From: Ciceribacter sp. L1K22
Lineage (GTDB): Bacteria; Pseudomonadota; Alphaproteobacteria; Rhizobiales; Rhizobiaceae
Direction of reading: 5' to 3'
Assembly: GCF_017599385.1 (NCBI RefSeq)
Contig: NZ_JAGFPK010000001.1
Coordinates: forward strand, 2,059,541-2,123,540
Length of the DNA: 64,000 nucleotides
This document shows positions 2,257 to 19,472 of the stretch, in pieces. A program made the translations under genes and the position numbers. The notes under the pieces are model-generated. The model was not told the DNA's origin, made no database searches, and saw only the letters and a program-made list of their open reading frames with translations. Position 1 is the first letter of the stretch; every line of letters starts with the position of its first letter.

Positions 2257-3447
2257 ATGAAAGACCGCAAGAAGATGCTGGCCGAAGCCGGCACGGATAC
2301 CAGGCTCTGCCATATCGGAAACGACCCGTCCGACTTCTTCGGTTTCGTCAATCCGCCGGTCGTGCACGCGTCCACGGTCCTGTTTCCCGACGTCAAGACG
2401 ATGGAGACCCGGGCCCAGAAATACACCTACGGAACGCGTGGTACGCCGACGACGGACGCGCTCTGCGCGGCGATCGATGAACTGGAAGGCTCCGCCGGAA
2501 CGATTCTGGTGCCTTCGGGGCTGGCCGCGATCACCGTGCCATTCCTCGCCTATCTGTCGGCGGGCGACCATGCGCTGATCGTCGATTCGGTCTATTCGCC
2601 CTGCCGCCATTTCTGCGACACGATGCTCACGCGTCTGGGCGTCGAGATCGAATACTACGATCCTGCCGTCGGCGCCGGCATAGAAACGCTGATCCGCCCC
2701 AACACGAAGCTCGTGCACGCCGAGGCACCGGGTTCGAACACCTTCGAAATGCAGGACATCCGTGCCATCGCCGACGCCGCCCACAAGCATGGCTGCGTCG
2801 TCACCATGGACAATACCTGGGCGACGCCGCTCTATTTCCGGCCACTCGATTTCGGCGTCGACGTCTCGATCCACGCCGCCACCAAGTATCCGTCCGGCCA
2901 TTCCGATATCCTGATGGGAACCGTTTCGGCCAACGAGGCACACTGGAAGGCGCTCAGCGAAGCGCAGTATACGCTCGGCACCTGTCCGTCGCCGGATGAT
3001 TCCTACATGATCCTGCGCGGCCTGCGCACCATGGGTTTGAGGCTCGACGCGCACCAGAAGGCCGCCCTTGCCGTAGCGGAGTGGCTGGAGGGCAGGGAAG
3101 GTGTGGCCAAGGTCCTGCATCCGGCGCTGCCGAGCTTTCCCGGCCACGACATCTGGAAGCGCGACTTCAAGGGAGCGAGCGGCATCTTCTCCTTCGTGCT
3201 CGCTGCCGACGGTCAGGCACAGTTCAAGCCAAAGGCCCGCGCCTTCCTCGACGAACTCTCCCTTTTCGGCCTGGGCTATTCGTGGGGCGGATACGAAAGC
3301 CTCGCGGTCATGGTCAATCTCGACGACCGCCGGATCTGCAAGGCACCGACAGAGGGCCCGGTGATCCGACTGCAGATCGGCCTGGAGAATGTCGAGGACA
3401 TCATCGCCGATCTCGAACGCGGTTTTGCGGCGGCTGCGAAGGTCTGA
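2257..3447 (+). CDS. metC: Cystathionine beta-lyase
   Basis: A PLP enzyme of the Cys/Met metabolism family. It probably cleaves cystathionine to homocysteine, pyruvate and ammonia in methionine synthesis. The 396-residue protein shows the PLP-phosphate contact YTYGTRGTPT (about 56-65), the cofactor Asp in MDNTWAT (D185) and the Schiff-base lysine in HAATKYPSGHSD (K210). The length fits MetC. The ATG at 2257 follows AAAGGTG at a good distance. A GTG four codons upstream overlaps that ribosome site and is less likely. It converges on the downstream monooxygenase, two bases from its stop. A gamma-lyase or synthase role cannot be fully excluded from motifs alone. Confidence 0.93.
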   Translation: MKDRKKMLAEAGTDTRLCHIGNDPSDFFGFVNPPVVHASTVLFPDVKTMETRAQKYTYGTRGTPTTDALCAAIDELEGSAGTILVPSGLAAITVPFLAYLSAGDHALIVDSVYSPCRHFCDTMLTRLGVEIEYYDPAVGAGIETLIRPNTKLVHAEAPGSNTFEMQDIRAIADAAHKHGCVVTMDNTWATPLYFRPLDFGVDVSIHAATKYPSGHSDILMGTVSANEAHWKALSEAQYTLGTCPSPDDSYMILRGLRTMGLRLDAHQKAALAVAEWLEGREGVAKVLHPALPSFPGHDIWKRDFKGASGIFSFVLAADGQAQFKPKARAFLDELSLFGLGYSWGGYESLAVMVNLDDRRICKAPTEGPVIRLQIGLENVEDIIADLERGFAAAAKV

Positions 3448-8965: not shown

Positions 8966-11416
8966 GTGCCCACATTTTCTCCCAGTCTAGAGAAGGCGCT
9001 GCATCAGGCACTGACTTTTGCCAACGAGCGTCACCACGAATATGCAACGCTCGAGCACCTGCTGCTGGCATTGATCGATGATGCCGACGCGGCGGCCGTG
9101 ATGGGCGCCTGCAACGTCGATCTCGACGCTCTGCGCAAGACCGTCAAGGATTATGTCGACAACGAACTCGCCAATCTCGTGACGGGGTATGACGAGGATT
9201 CCAAGCCGACGTCCGGATTCCAGCGCGTCATCCAGCGCGCGGTGATCCACGTCCAGTCGTCGGGCCGCGAGGAAGTCACCGGCGCGAACGTGCTGGTCGC
9301 GATCTTCGCCGAGCGCGAGAGCCACGCCGCCTTCTTCCTTCAGGAGCAGGAGATGACCCGCTACGATGCGGTCAATTATATCTCGCACGGAATCGGCAAG
9401 CGTCCGGGGGCGACCCAGACCCGCGCGCCGCGCGGTGCCGAGGAAGGCGAGAGCGAGGCCAAGCAGGCCCGCGACGCTGACGAAGGCGGCCAAAAGAAGC
9501 AGCAGGACGCGCTGAAGGCCTACTGCGTCAACCTCAACGAAAAGGCCAAGGGCGGCAAGATCGATCCGCTGATCGGTCGCCACGACGAGGTCAACCGCAC
9601 GATCCAGGTCCTGTGCCGTCGCTCGAAGAACAACCCGCTCTACGTCGGCGATCCCGGCGTTGGCAAGACGGCGATCGCCGAAGGCCTTGCCAAGCGCATC
9701 GTCGAAGGCAAGGTGCCGGAAGCGCTGGCCGACGCCACCATCTTCTCGCTCGACATGGGCACGCTGCTCGCCGGCACGCGCTATCGCGGTGACTTCGAGG
9801 AACGCCTGAAGCAGGTCGTCAAGGAACTGGAAGAGTATCCCGGAGCCGTGCTGTTCATTGACGAGATACACACGGTCATCGGCGCCGGCGCCACGTCCGG
9901 CGGCGCGATGGATGCATCGAACCTATTAAAACCGGCCCTCTCTTCCGGTGCGATCCGCTGCATCGGCTCGACCACCTACAAGGAATACCGCCAGTTCTTC
10001 GAGAAGGACCGGGCCCTGGTCCGCCGCTTCCAGAAGATCGACGTCAACGAACCGTCGATCGACGATGCGATCGAGATCATGAAGGGCCTGAAGCCGTACT
10101 TCGAGGACTATCACAAGCTGAAATACACCAACGACGCCATCAAGGCCGCCGTTGAGCTGTCGGCCCGCTACATCTCCGACCGCAAGCTGCCTGACAAGGC
10201 GATCGACGTGATCGACGAGACGGGCGCGGCGCAGATGCTGCTGACCGCCTCCAAGCGCCGCAAGCTGATCACCGAGAAGGAGATCGAGGCAACAATCGCG
10301 ACCATGGCGCGCATTCCGCCGAAGACGGTGTCCAAGGACGACGAGATGGTTCTCGCCAATCTCGAGAAGGAACTGCGCTCGGTCGTCTACGGTCAGGACA
10401 AGGCCATCGAGGCGCTTTCGACATCGATCAAGCTCGCTCGTGCGGGTCTGCGCGAACCGAACAAGCCGATCGGCGCCTATGTCTTCTCCGGTCCGACCGG
10501 CGTTGGCAAGACCGAGGTTGCGAAGCAGCTGGCTTCGTCGCTCGGCGTTGAACTGCTGCGCTTCGACATGTCGGAATACATGGAGCGCCACACGGTTTCC
10601 CGTCTGCTCGGCGCACCTCCCGGCTATGTCGGCTTCGACCAGGGCGGTCTCTTGACCGACCAGGTGGACCAGCATCCGCATTCGGTCGTGCTGCTCGACG
10701 AAATCGAGAAGGCGCATCCGGATATCTACAACATCCTGTTGCAGGTGATGGACCACGGCTCGCTGACGGACCACAACGGCAAGAAGATCGACTTCCGCAA
10801 CGTCATCCTGATCATGACGACCAATGCGGGCGCATCGGAAATGGCCAAGGCCGCGATCGGTTTCGGCTCGTCCAAGCGCACCGGTGAGGACGAAGAGGCG
10901 CTCAACCGCCTGTTCACGCCGGAATTCCGCAACCGCCTCGACGCGACCATTCCGTTCGCGCCGCTGCCGACGGAGGTCATCCACCAGGTCGTGCAGAAGT
11001 TCGTCATGCAGCTGGAAGCCCAGTTGTCGGAACGCAACGTCACCTTCGACCTGTCGAAGGAGGCAATCGCCTGGCTCGCAACGCGCGGCTACGACGAGAA
11101 GATGGGCGCCCGGCCGCTGTCGCGGATCATCCAGGAGCACATCAAGAAGCCGCTGGCCAACGAGATCCTCTTCGGCAAGCTGAAGAAGGGCGGCGTGGTC
11201 AAGGTCGGTGTGAAGACCGACGATACAGGCGCTGAGATGCTGGATCTGGAGGCGGTGTCCGAAGTCGCTCCGGTCAAGCCGAAGCCCGAGGCCGAGCAGG
11301 TCGAGGCCAAGGCCAAGAAGCCCCGCAAGGCGGCGAAGGCAAAGGCCGAGAAGGTGACCGAACCCGAGCCGCAGTCCAAGCGCCGGACATCGGTTCCGCG
11401 GGTGCCGAAGAAATAA
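8966..11416 (+). CDS. clpA: ATP-dependent Clp protease ATP-binding subunit ClpA
   Basis: ClpA is the AAA+ unfoldase that feeds ClpP. In the 816 residues are the Clp N-domain (1-145), a charged linker (150-180), D1 with Walker A GDPGVGKT (228-235) and Walker B VLFIDEIHT, and D2 with Walker A GPTGVGKT (about 507-514) and VVLLDEIEKAHPD. The GTG start follows GAGGAA. After the D2 small domain comes a Lys/Ala/Pro/Glu-rich tail of roughly 45 residues (about 770-816) that E. coli ClpA lacks. The tail may affect turnover or partner choice (inferred). Confidence 0.96.
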   Translation: MPTFSPSLEKALHQALTFANERHHEYATLEHLLLALIDDADAAAVMGACNVDLDALRKTVKDYVDNELANLVTGYDEDSKPTSGFQRVIQRAVIHVQSSGREEVTGANVLVAIFAERESHAAFFLQEQEMTRYDAVNYISHGIGKRPGATQTRAPRGAEEGESEAKQARDADEGGQKKQQDALKAYCVNLNEKAKGGKIDPLIGRHDEVNRTIQVLCRRSKNNPLYVGDPGVGKTAIAEGLAKRIVEGKVPEALADATIFSLDMGTLLAGTRYRGDFEERLKQVVKELEEYPGAVLFIDEIHTVIGAGATSGGAMDASNLLKPALSSGAIRCIGSTTYKEYRQFFEKDRALVRRFQKIDVNEPSIDDAIEIMKGLKPYFEDYHKLKYTNDAIKAAVELSARYISDRKLPDKAIDVIDETGAAQMLLTASKRRKLITEKEIEATIATMARIPPKTVSKDDEMVLANLEKELRSVVYGQDKAIEALSTSIKLARAGLREPNKPIGAYVFSGPTGVGKTEVAKQLASSLGVELLRFDMSEYMERHTVSRLLGAPPGYVGFDQGGLLTDQVDQHPHSVVLLDEIEKAHPDIYNILLQVMDHGSLTDHNGKKIDFRNVILIMTTNAGASEMAKAAIGFGSSKRTGEDEEALNRLFTPEFRNRLDATIPFAPLPTEVIHQVVQKFVMQLEAQLSERNVTFDLSKEAIAWLATRGYDEKMGARPLSRIIQEHIKKPLANEILFGKLKKGGVVKVGVKTDDTGAEMLDLEAVSEVAPVKPKPEAEQVEAKAKKPRKAAKAKAEKVTEPEPQSKRRTSVPRVPKK

Positions 11417-11498
11417 GTCGAGGAATTCGACACGCAGAAAGGCCGGGCAATGCCCGGGCTCAGACTGCTGACAAACCCCTGGCTACATCCGGGGGTTT

Positions 11499-11573
11499 AT
11501 GATTCACTGGGACATGTTGAAGAAACCTGCTCCCGAACAGACGGCTCTCGAGATGGAGATCACGAAAACCTAA
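11499..11573 (+). CDS. Possible 24-residue micro-ORF inside the inverted-repeat element
   Basis: ATG at 11499 opens a frame beginning MIHWDMLKKPAPEQTA and ending EMEITKT before TAA at 11571-11573. GGGGG (11491-11495) sits three bases before the start, a little close for a ribosome site. The peptide matches nothing I recognise, and 25 codons can arise by chance. It is listed because it is neatly framed between the two internal hairpins. Confidence 0.25.
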   Translation: MIHWDMLKKPAPEQTALEMEITKT

Positions 11574-11653
11574 GACCAAAACACCACCTGACCGCGCACC
11601 TAAAAACAAGAAAACCCGCCAAGCAAAAATCGGCGGGTTTGTCAGCAGTCTGA

Positions 11654-11676
11654 GCCCGGCAATGCCGGGCCTTTTT
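11654..11676 (+). terminator. Terminator at the right end of the element, probably serving clpSA
   Basis: GCCCGGC (11654-11660) pairs with GCCGGGC (11664-11670) around AAT, followed by CTTTTT and more Ts after GCG. It reads in the clpA direction. Confidence 0.8.
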
Positions 11677-11709
11677 GCGTTTTTAGGATTGAAGCCTCTC
11701 TCTGAGACC

Positions 11710-12108
11710 TCAGCCGGCATTGGGGACGCGGGCCACCACCTTGATCTCGAAGTCGAAACCGGCAAGCCAGGTGACGCCAACGGCGGTCCAGTTGGGGTAG
11801 GGCGCTTTCGGGAACACGGCTTGCTTCACGGCCATGATGGTGCCGAACTGGTTTTCCGGGTCGGTGTGGAAGGTCGTCACATCGATGATGTCATCGAGGC
11901 CGCACCCGGCGGCTGCGAGCGTCGCCCGCAGATTGTCGAAGGCAAGCTCAACCTGCCTCGCGAAATCGGGTTCCGGCGTGCCGTCTGTACGGCTGCCCAC
12001 CTGGCCGGAGACGAACAGGAGATCACCGGATCGGATTGCGGCGGAATAGCCATGCTCTTCATAGAGCGCGTGCCGATTGGCGGGGAAGACGGGTTGAGGC
12101 TTGGACAT
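11710..12108 (-). CDS. RidA family protein
   Basis: A 132-residue member of the YjgF/YER057c/UK114 fold. It carries LLFVSGQVGSRTDG, FDNLRATLAAAGCGLDDIIDVTTF and the C-terminal PYPNWTAVGVTWLA. RidA proper deaminates reactive enamines through an Arg in the C-terminal signature. Here that region reads NWTAVGVTW without Arg, so this is probably a Rid subfamily other than RidA and not the classical deaminase. It is divergent from a TetR gene whose operator array lies between them, so it is likely regulated by that repressor. Confidence 0.85.
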   Translation of the reverse strand: MSKPQPVFPANRHALYEEHGYSAAIRSGDLLFVSGQVGSRTDGTPEPDFARQVELAFDNLRATLAAAGCGLDDIIDVTTFHTDPENQFGTIMAVKQAVFPKAPYPNWTAVGVTWLAGFDFEIKVVARVPNAG

Positions 12109-12189
12109 TGATTTTCCTTATCTAGGGCATCAAGAGACCCGTCCCGCGGACGCCATGCGCCACCGGCTTTCCAGGTCTGCAATTTTCAT

Positions 12190-12252
12190 ATACGGTGCGT
12201 ATCTAATCTGATGACATACGCATCGTATTTCAAGTTTAAATACGCGTCGTAT
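12190..12252. promoter_or_regulatory. Array of three TetR-type operators ATACG-N3-CGTAT
   Basis: Three 13-bp palindromes of the form ATACGNNNCGTAT lie at 12190-12202 (centre GTG), 12216-12228 (centre CAT) and 12240-12252 (centre CGT). Start-to-start spacings are 26 and 24 bases, a little over two helical turns. They occupy the gap between divergent ridA and tetR and end 16 bases before the tetR ATG. Self-repression and control of ridA are inferred. Confidence 0.85.
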
Positions 12253-12268
12253 GTGAAGTGGGAAGAAG

Positions 12269-12862
12269 ATGGCCAAAAGCCGGGCAGAAACGATGGAAGA
12301 AAACCGCGCCAAGCTGATCGGCGCGGCGCGCAAGGCGTTTGCCGAGAAGGGCTATGCCGCGGCCTCGATGGACGAACTGACGGCTGATGTCGGGCTGACG
12401 AGGGGCGCCCTCTACCATAATTTCGGTGACAAGCGCGGCCTGCTGGCCGCGGTCGTCGACCAGATCGACTGCGAGATGGCCGCCTGCGCGCAGTCGATCG
12501 GTGCGAAGATCGGGGACGACTGGGAGGGGCTGCTGGCCGAGGGCGCCGCCTATATCGAGATGGCGCTCGATCCGGAGGTCCAGCGCATCGTCCTGCTCGA
12601 CGGACCCGCCGTGCTCGGCGATCCGTCGCTGTGGCCAAGCCAGAACAGCTGCCTGCAGGTCACGCGCCGAACGGTGGAGAAGCTGATCGAGCGTGGCGTC
12701 ATGAAGCCGCTCGACGCCGAGGCCGCGGCGCGTCTGGTGAGCGGCGCGGCGCTCAACGCGGCGCTGTGGGTGGCTGCGAGTGACGATCCCAAAGGCGTGC
12801 TGCCGAAGGCGCTGGAGGCATTCCGGGCGCTCGCGGCGGGTTTGCTCGCCAAGCCGGCATGA
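12269..12862 (+). CDS. TetR/AcrR family transcriptional regulator
   Basis: A 197-residue repressor with the N-terminal helix-turn-helix: AARKAFAEKGYAAASMDELTADVGLTRGALYHNFGDK spans about residues 19-55, quoted by motif as KGYAAASMDEL and GALYHNFGDK. The C-terminal ligand domain is variable and its inducer is unknown. The ATG at 12269 follows GGAAGA. The three palindromes immediately upstream are its likely operators. AzlCD and DUF1989 genes follow on the same strand and could be further targets. Confidence 0.93.
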   Translation: MAKSRAETMEENRAKLIGAARKAFAEKGYAAASMDELTADVGLTRGALYHNFGDKRGLLAAVVDQIDCEMAACAQSIGAKIGDDWEGLLAEGAAYIEMALDPEVQRIVLLDGPAVLGDPSLWPSQNSCLQVTRRTVEKLIERGVMKPLDAEAAARLVSGAALNAALWVAASDDPKGVLPKALEAFRALAAGLLAKPA

Positions 12863-19274: not shown

Positions 19275-19472
19275 GGCGTCGCCCCGGCACTAATCCCGTC
19301 TTTCTGTCACAAATGCCTTGATTTCCCGGCGCCTTGGCTATAAGGCCACCTCCATTCCACACGCGTGGCTTGGGATTGTCCGGGAGAAATCCGGTCCGTT
19401 CCGCCCGGTGGCACGCCGAAAGGGGTGCTGTTCGCCACGCGGGGGTTCAACCGGAAAAGGAGAATGACAGGC
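19275..19472 (+). promoter_or_regulatory. Leader region of rpsB
   Basis: The 198 bases before rpsB hold a weak promoter-like pair (TTGATT at 19318-19323; TATAAG at 19339-19344, short 15-base spacer). Several GC-rich inverted repeats follow, including one around a GAAA loop near 19413-19430. Ribosomal-protein genes are often autoregulated through such leaders; no known leader class was matched. Confidence 0.4.

Follow-up and report, generated by a model that had tools for sequence, protein, structure and literature searches.

The window analysed here is a 64,000-nucleotide stretch of the Ciceribacter sp. L1K22 genome, in which an 816-aa ORF on the forward strand (8966-11416) and a 132-aa ORF on the reverse strand (11710-12108) converge on a short, highly structured intergenic region. 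We call these genes clpA and ridA, the names used by a first-pass annotation of the same DNA. The genes beyond ridA are presumably tetR-like and azlC-like, names given from resemblance; the order clpA, element, ridA, tetR-like, azlC-like places a ridA-tetR block (11700-12862) between clpA and the azlC-like gene. The annotation had proposed an inverted-repeat element at 11433-11679 with a hairpin in each arm, and both arms and hairpins are borne out: 11454-11478 and 11635-11659 are complementary at 25 of 25 positions, and the arms of about 46 nt that include the outer hairpins (11440-11460 and 11653-11672) are inverted copies at 91% (E 5.2e-11). The 16-mer CAGACTGCTGACAAAC lies exactly at 11461-11476 (+) and again at 11637-11652 (-), giving terminal inverted repeats of 16/16 at both ends. 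The element is real, with narrower limits than proposed: the element proper is the 192 bp from 11461 to 11652, on the plus strand, and the outermost hairpins belong to its target.

Inside these limits, a left subterminal hairpin (AAACCCCTGG..CCGGGGGTTT, 11473-11498, +) carries in its 3' arm a Shine-Dalgarno-like GGGGG, 3 nt 5' of the ATG of a micro-ORF (11499-11573, +). This frame of 24 codons plus stop, which had already been noticed, is a truncated transposase start: its product, MIHWDMLKKPAPEQTALEM-EITKT, joins transposase codons 1-19 (MIHWDMLKKPAPEQTALEM) to five codons from beyond a deletion junction at 11556/11557, where the transposase body and its stop codon are gone. As annotated, there is no transposase-length ORF in the stretch. 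The right subterminal hairpin (11612-11640, -) has 11 pairs, which vary in sister elements, and a T-rich tail, TCTTGTTTTT, and is terminator-like for transcription from the ridA side. Both inner stems called by the annotation are present (-16.1 and -15.2 kcal/mol), and the AAACCC/GGGTTT pairing that it envisaged across the element is possible and is explained by the inverted repeat. Outside the element, the stem-loop AGGCCGGGCAATGCCCGGGCT (11440-11460, -14.9 kcal/mol), assigned to the clpA terminator, forms the left target copy; the right target copy is a terminator stem-loop, AGCCCGGCAATGCCGGGCCT then TTTTGCGTTTTT (11653-11672, +), with 80% identity to the left one over 20 nt. The right arm does end in a terminator-like site, with a stem at 11654-11670 that has 7 GC pairs and is followed by CTTTTTGCGT.

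As RNA, the region 11400-11700 folds at -133.3 kcal/mol (z -8.3), a value matched by 0 of 100 shuffles, and three terminator-like sites lie in 341 bases around the element against a shuffle mean of 0.6. Such a stable fold would suit the annotation's idea that the clpSA transcript ends in a structured RNA, which would be regulatory. We regard this as very unlikely, as no Rfam family matches at the element, the same end sequence occurs elsewhere in the genome and in other genera, and the pairing is that of the terminal inverted repeats of the IS and of the target hairpins flanking them. The sole Rfam match in the window is an rpsB sRNA at 19358-19466 (+), at 43.1 bits against a gathering threshold of 40. 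Bidirectional terminators are common between convergent genes, which would favour the annotation's fallback of a chance double terminator; the 16-nt ends, exact and inverted at 11461 and 11637 and recurring in the genome with the same interior, leave that reading a negligible probability.

A search of the whole genome (4.73 Mb, 26 contigs) returned 15 matches, six of which are the inverted arms of sites already matched. Besides the window copy, eight matches are long, each lying within the left half (query 15-135) or the right half (query 133-258) at 94-100% identity; because each covers one half only, we read the window copy as left half plus right half minus the middle. It alone spans the deletion, and the other long matches end at the junction: on the left, copy C runs on as ATGG/TGACG, and on the right the sequence in copies B, C and D is GATTA/AGATCACG. 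At 192 bp (below 500 bp), with terminal repeats and without a transposase, the window copy has the size and structure of a MITE; since the short form is single-copy in the genome, we file it as a deleted IS copy rather than as a MITE family. The proposal of a dispersed non-autonomous repeat, or of a mobile cassette carrying a terminator, was thus right in substance, the ends recurring in this genome and in other genera with an IS1182-family parent, but the deleted form is not itself dispersed here.

Runs of N interrupt copies B (C1:2953.6 kb), C (C1:2960.3 kb) and D (C1:3231 kb, to 3231.5 kb), as expected of a multicopy IS collapsed in short-read assembly, and beside its gap copy B encodes a transposase C-terminus, AASAQNIKKIAMAVSKAPDRAWV followed by a stop. 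Profile searches with NF033551 and PF13751 found no transposase in the assembly, an absence that we attribute to the N runs lying inside these three copies. The left parts of copies B, C and F stop no more than 6 nt from the deletion junction of the window copy, which would fit a fork in the repeat graph between deleted and full forms; the junction may also be an assembly artefact. In copies B and C the hairpin is duplicated exactly, over 26 bp. Site D (C1:3231.1-3231.5 kb; region C1:3231117-3231538) carries two different hairpins: AGCCCGGTCGCAAGACCGGGCT is found at C1:3231.1 kb (right end) and at C12:365.9 kb (left end; C12:365937-366058), and AAGGCGTCCTGAACGGACGCCTT at C1:3231.5 kb and at the end of C12 (C12:963558-963660). 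These two IS insertions with halves on different contigs reflect either a replicon rearrangement via IS copies or a misassembly.

Full-length copies are present in two genomes of the same genus, at 1540 bp (L160, in G034) and 1539 bp (L161, in G028), each with a 461-aa ORF starting MIHW.MLKKPAPEQTA.EM; judged by these sister copies, about 1.35 kb is gone from the window copy. The L161 transposase scores 484 bits against NF033551 (IS1182 family; cut-off 270) and also matches PF13751 and PF05598. Full-length members of the IS1182 family measure about 1.3-2 kb, a range that includes both sisters, the window genome's own full copy not being seen whole. We conclude that 11461-11652 is the remnant of an IS1182-family insertion sequence of which both ends only are left.

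The exact 16-mer is carried by 4 of the 289 genomes of the class, too few for statistics, and the same end sequence is found in other genera, in at least 118 stretches with the 16-mer. Chance alone should yield about 120 hits in 257 Gb, both strands counted, and for this reason we used the flanks as the test. Short elements that share these ends and are flanked by exact or near-exact hairpin copies occur in Brucella oryzae (139 bp, L076), Mesorhizobium (140 bp, L070), Providencia (141 bp, L130), Sodalis (163 bp, L035) and Listeria fleischmannii (176 bp, L124). In G028, too, a 171-bp form has these ends and exact or near-exact hairpin duplications; four copies are 98.8% alike (L156 1509-1679, L157 1315-1485 and 1506-1676, L166 917-1087) and a fifth, of 182 bp, is about 90% alike (L154 1507-1688). 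This short form is a multicopy MITE whose interior is unlike that of the window copy (54% overall). The two L157 copies stand in tandem around a common middle hairpin. A repeat of 163-165 bp in Sodalis and Yersinia (L035, L080, L122, L127) has one CAGACTGCTGACAAAC end and a diverged other end, with near-exact hairpin copies on both sides in L035, two less similar ones in L080 and none found in L122 and L127.

Element ends adjoin hairpins. We scored 120 unique junctions, each flanked by 60 nt or more of sequence, for a perfect stem ending no more than 2 nt from the element, with random positions in the same loci as controls. Among the matches listed, a stem of at least 6 pairs adjoins the element end at 90 of the 120 junctions versus 22 of 2232 random positions, 70 of these 90 stems end exactly at the element, and stems of at least 9 pairs are found at 43 of the junctions versus 0 of 2232 controls; the 30 listed junctions without a 6-pair stem include some chance 16-mer hits and some imperfect stems. 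The 8 nt preceding the 90 listed stems contain 4.4 A on average. Around 14 measurable exact duplications, the 6 nt before the left hairpin hold at least 3 A in 13 cases and the 6 nt after the right hairpin at least 3 T in 11. The target is a terminator hairpin, a stem-loop the sequence of which is irrelevant.

In many elements the hairpin is present on both sides. Pairing left and right ends 100-2000 bp apart, and dropping L043 and L101 (contig ends) and flanks shorter than 40 nt, left 63 end pairs. Among the matches listed, 19 of the 63 are flanked by exact direct repeats of 19-28 bp, all of which form a stem of at least 7 pairs, and 17 more, the window copy among them, by near-exact repeats (at least 80% identity, at least 18 nt). 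The remaining 27 listed pairs have two different hairpins (5), a hairpin on one side only (14) or none (8). Eight of the 27 have one end in common with another listed pair and so represent nested or alternative pairings, and a few others resemble chance hits; L106, L045, L249 and L223 are real-looking exceptions to hairpin duplication. The search for empty sites that the annotation had recommended succeeded for a sister insertion, L219 on pRL11 of Rhizobium ruizarguesonis: its empty site in plasmids L255 and L257 has one 24-bp hairpin, versus two around the IS. For L218, the corresponding position in a related plasmid (97%) holds one hairpin, which differs slightly, and for L228 a sequence query found no empty site. 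In L140 (1483-1506 versus 3046-3069) the left hairpin contains a single mismatch, A against C, whereas the right one is a perfect 10-pair stem, a difference that would suit correction of the right copy by gap repair through the hairpin.

The two flanks of the window element are 80% identical (16 of 20), with one base pair of the stem swapped and a change at the foot, while the element ends almost match other copies. When the flanks of 33 other elements are mispaired, 3 of 1056 comparisons attain 80% (5 of 1056 are as close by edit distance), and the best match of the window flanks to the flanks of those elements is 0.76 in 66 comparisons. Both hairpins share the core GGCAATGCC, and CCSGGCAATGCCSGG has just one other exact occurrence in the genome. 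Because mispaired flanks seldom show such identity and the core common to both hairpins is rare genome-wide, we take the two outer hairpins as most likely diverged copies of one duplicated clpA terminator stem-loop, judging from sequence similarity. The clpA homologue also ends in a stem-loop in L195, L198, L200 and L201 of the same genus, and the core of the left hairpin, GCCGGGC..GCCCGG, recurs in the clpA terminators of L195 and L198 and, with one base changed, of L200; in other relatives (e.g. L188-L194) other stem-loops lie further downstream of clpA.

The four differences in 20 positions, set against an unchanged element body, could also mean that the window copy arose by recombination between two IS copies that sat in the terminators of two different genes, the interval between them having been deleted. 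Site D and L106 do carry two different hairpins, and none of the relatives inspected showed the clpA-ridA arrangement: in L195, L198 and L200, clpA is followed by a terminator with a GCCGGG..CCCGGC stem and then directly by the azlC-like gene, and ridA-like matches lie away from clpA. The shared core and the rarity of such similarity among mispaired flanks, never reached against the other 33 elements, make recombination an improbable origin. Insertion at a terminator combined with internal deletion very probably explains the feature. An IS1182-family element would have inserted at the stem-loop of the clpA intrinsic terminator, and this copy would then have lost its middle, or arrived without it, so that two ends remain. 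With the hairpin copied, transcripts from either side should meet a hairpin with a T tract at the far end of the insertion.

Apart from the target hairpins, the element ends carry covarying hairpins of their own. We compared two hand-picked sets of 23 related sequences each, the right ends chosen from 71 'right' types, which also held left ends and chance hits, and the left ends from 27 left types plus start-codon variants among the 71. In the left ends, the hairpin pairs in 93.0% of cells versus 91.4% when shuffled, three pairs have both partners changed (6 of 500 shuffles reach this number), and the covariation score is 0.158 versus 0.121 (0 of 500 shuffles). The right ends have on average 9.3 pairs of 10, whereas shuffling the partners gives 7.5 (at most 8.3 in 500 shuffles), and pairs 6-9 occur in several kinds; pairing was counted by script because the MAFFT alignment misplaced the 3' arms. 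The outer AAACC/GGTTT of the end hairpins is nearly constant. The 3' arm of the left hairpin, usually GGGGG or GGAGG, lies 3-4 nt 5' of the transposase start codon (ATG, GTG or TTG), and we infer that the left hairpin could hide this ribosome site, and with it the transposase start, in read-through mRNA. A hairpin hides the ribosome site similarly in IS10 and IS50. To transcripts coming in from outside, the right hairpin presents a terminator-like structure, and it could terminate those arriving from the other side. In these ways the end hairpins may give added protection.

By itself the window copy is ordinary, a dead IS copy; the structure-directed, terminator-duplicating insertion of its group is a variation on known behaviour. 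In a tree of 24 transposases, 7 members without hairpin duplication (labelled 'short', with duplications of 0 to 6 bp) split from the 17 others with branch support 94/93, the placing of three long-branched rows among the 7 (L226, L227, L254) being unsure. L226, L227, L250 and L254 have duplications of 0-6 bp. The 17, of which L221, L098 and L125 are partial open frames, comprise 11 exact and 4 near-exact hairpin duplications, L106, labelled hairpin-duplicating despite its two different hairpins, and L249 with a one-sided hairpin. On balance we favour a scheme in which a CAGACTG-ended IS1182 subgroup, spread over Alpha-, Beta- and Gammaproteobacteria and Bacilli, would cut both strands of an extruded terminator cruciform at the 5' feet and so duplicate the whole intrinsic terminator without loss of gene-end function; safe sites would be chosen by DNA shape, and short derivatives would spread extra terminators. 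Hairpins at gene ends are common and would offer a shape-reading element a ready supply of mostly harmless landing sites, and duplication of the whole hairpin should keep the neighbours' terminators intact. Within one transposase family, members duplicate, delete or ignore the hairpin, a contrast that makes structure-directed target choice testable, and annotators gain a rule for spotting such repeats, including short ones without a transposase.

Related behaviour has been described for IS1272 and TnSha1 of the IS1182 family, which enter stem-loops without sequence consensus, several of them transcription terminators (PMC4923244, PMC5678879), and both of these reports cite Siguier et al. for some IS1182-family members that target palindromic sequences. 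A large survey lists IS1182 among the families overrepresented between convergent genes (PMC9208149), which fits terminator targeting. Our literature search, with ISfinder outside its reach, found no paper describing terminator targeting with hairpin duplication, although Wan et al. sketch duplication of the whole stem-loop as a hypothetical 'pathway b' (PMC5678879); the mode may already be familiar to curators. The elements studied here share with IS1272 and TnSha1 the family, the stem-loop target, the freedom from sequence consensus and the use of several terminators. By the published description, those two partly delete or replace the target hairpin and make no target duplication (Furi 2016, PMC4923244; Wan 2017, PMC5678879), whereas in many of the sister elements it is duplicated whole and not removed (exactly in 19 of 63 end pairs, among the matches listed).

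ISCfr1 and IS1182 members on Aeromonas, Pseudomonas and Sphingomonas plasmids (L225, L251, L252, L253) have an IS1182-type transposase, 29-30% identical to that of L161 in the ISCfr1, Pseudomonas and Sphingomonas rows, but have ends GATTCTGTTGAAAAAG.. and 4-bp duplications (GGCC, CCCC; L225 readable as 6) with no hairpin. ISPse1 of Paracoccus (IS1182) is likewise listed with 4 bp (PMC3281130). MITEPye1 of Paracoccus yeei resembles the window copy as a short, intergenic, IS1182-type MITE with terminal repeats of that type and no transposase; unlike it, MITEPye1 is reported with 4-bp direct repeats, in a main text that does not use the word 'terminator' (PMC11578231). A further group comprises IS1182 members with ends CAGACTGTAGACAAA from Enterococcus faecium (L224) and Peribacillus (L248), with the ISEfa7-like L223 and L249: L224 and L248 are flanked by exact hairpin copies of 22 and 24 bp, as in the elements described here, whereas in L249 and L223 only one side bears a hairpin and the L224 transposase is 41.9% identical to that of L161.
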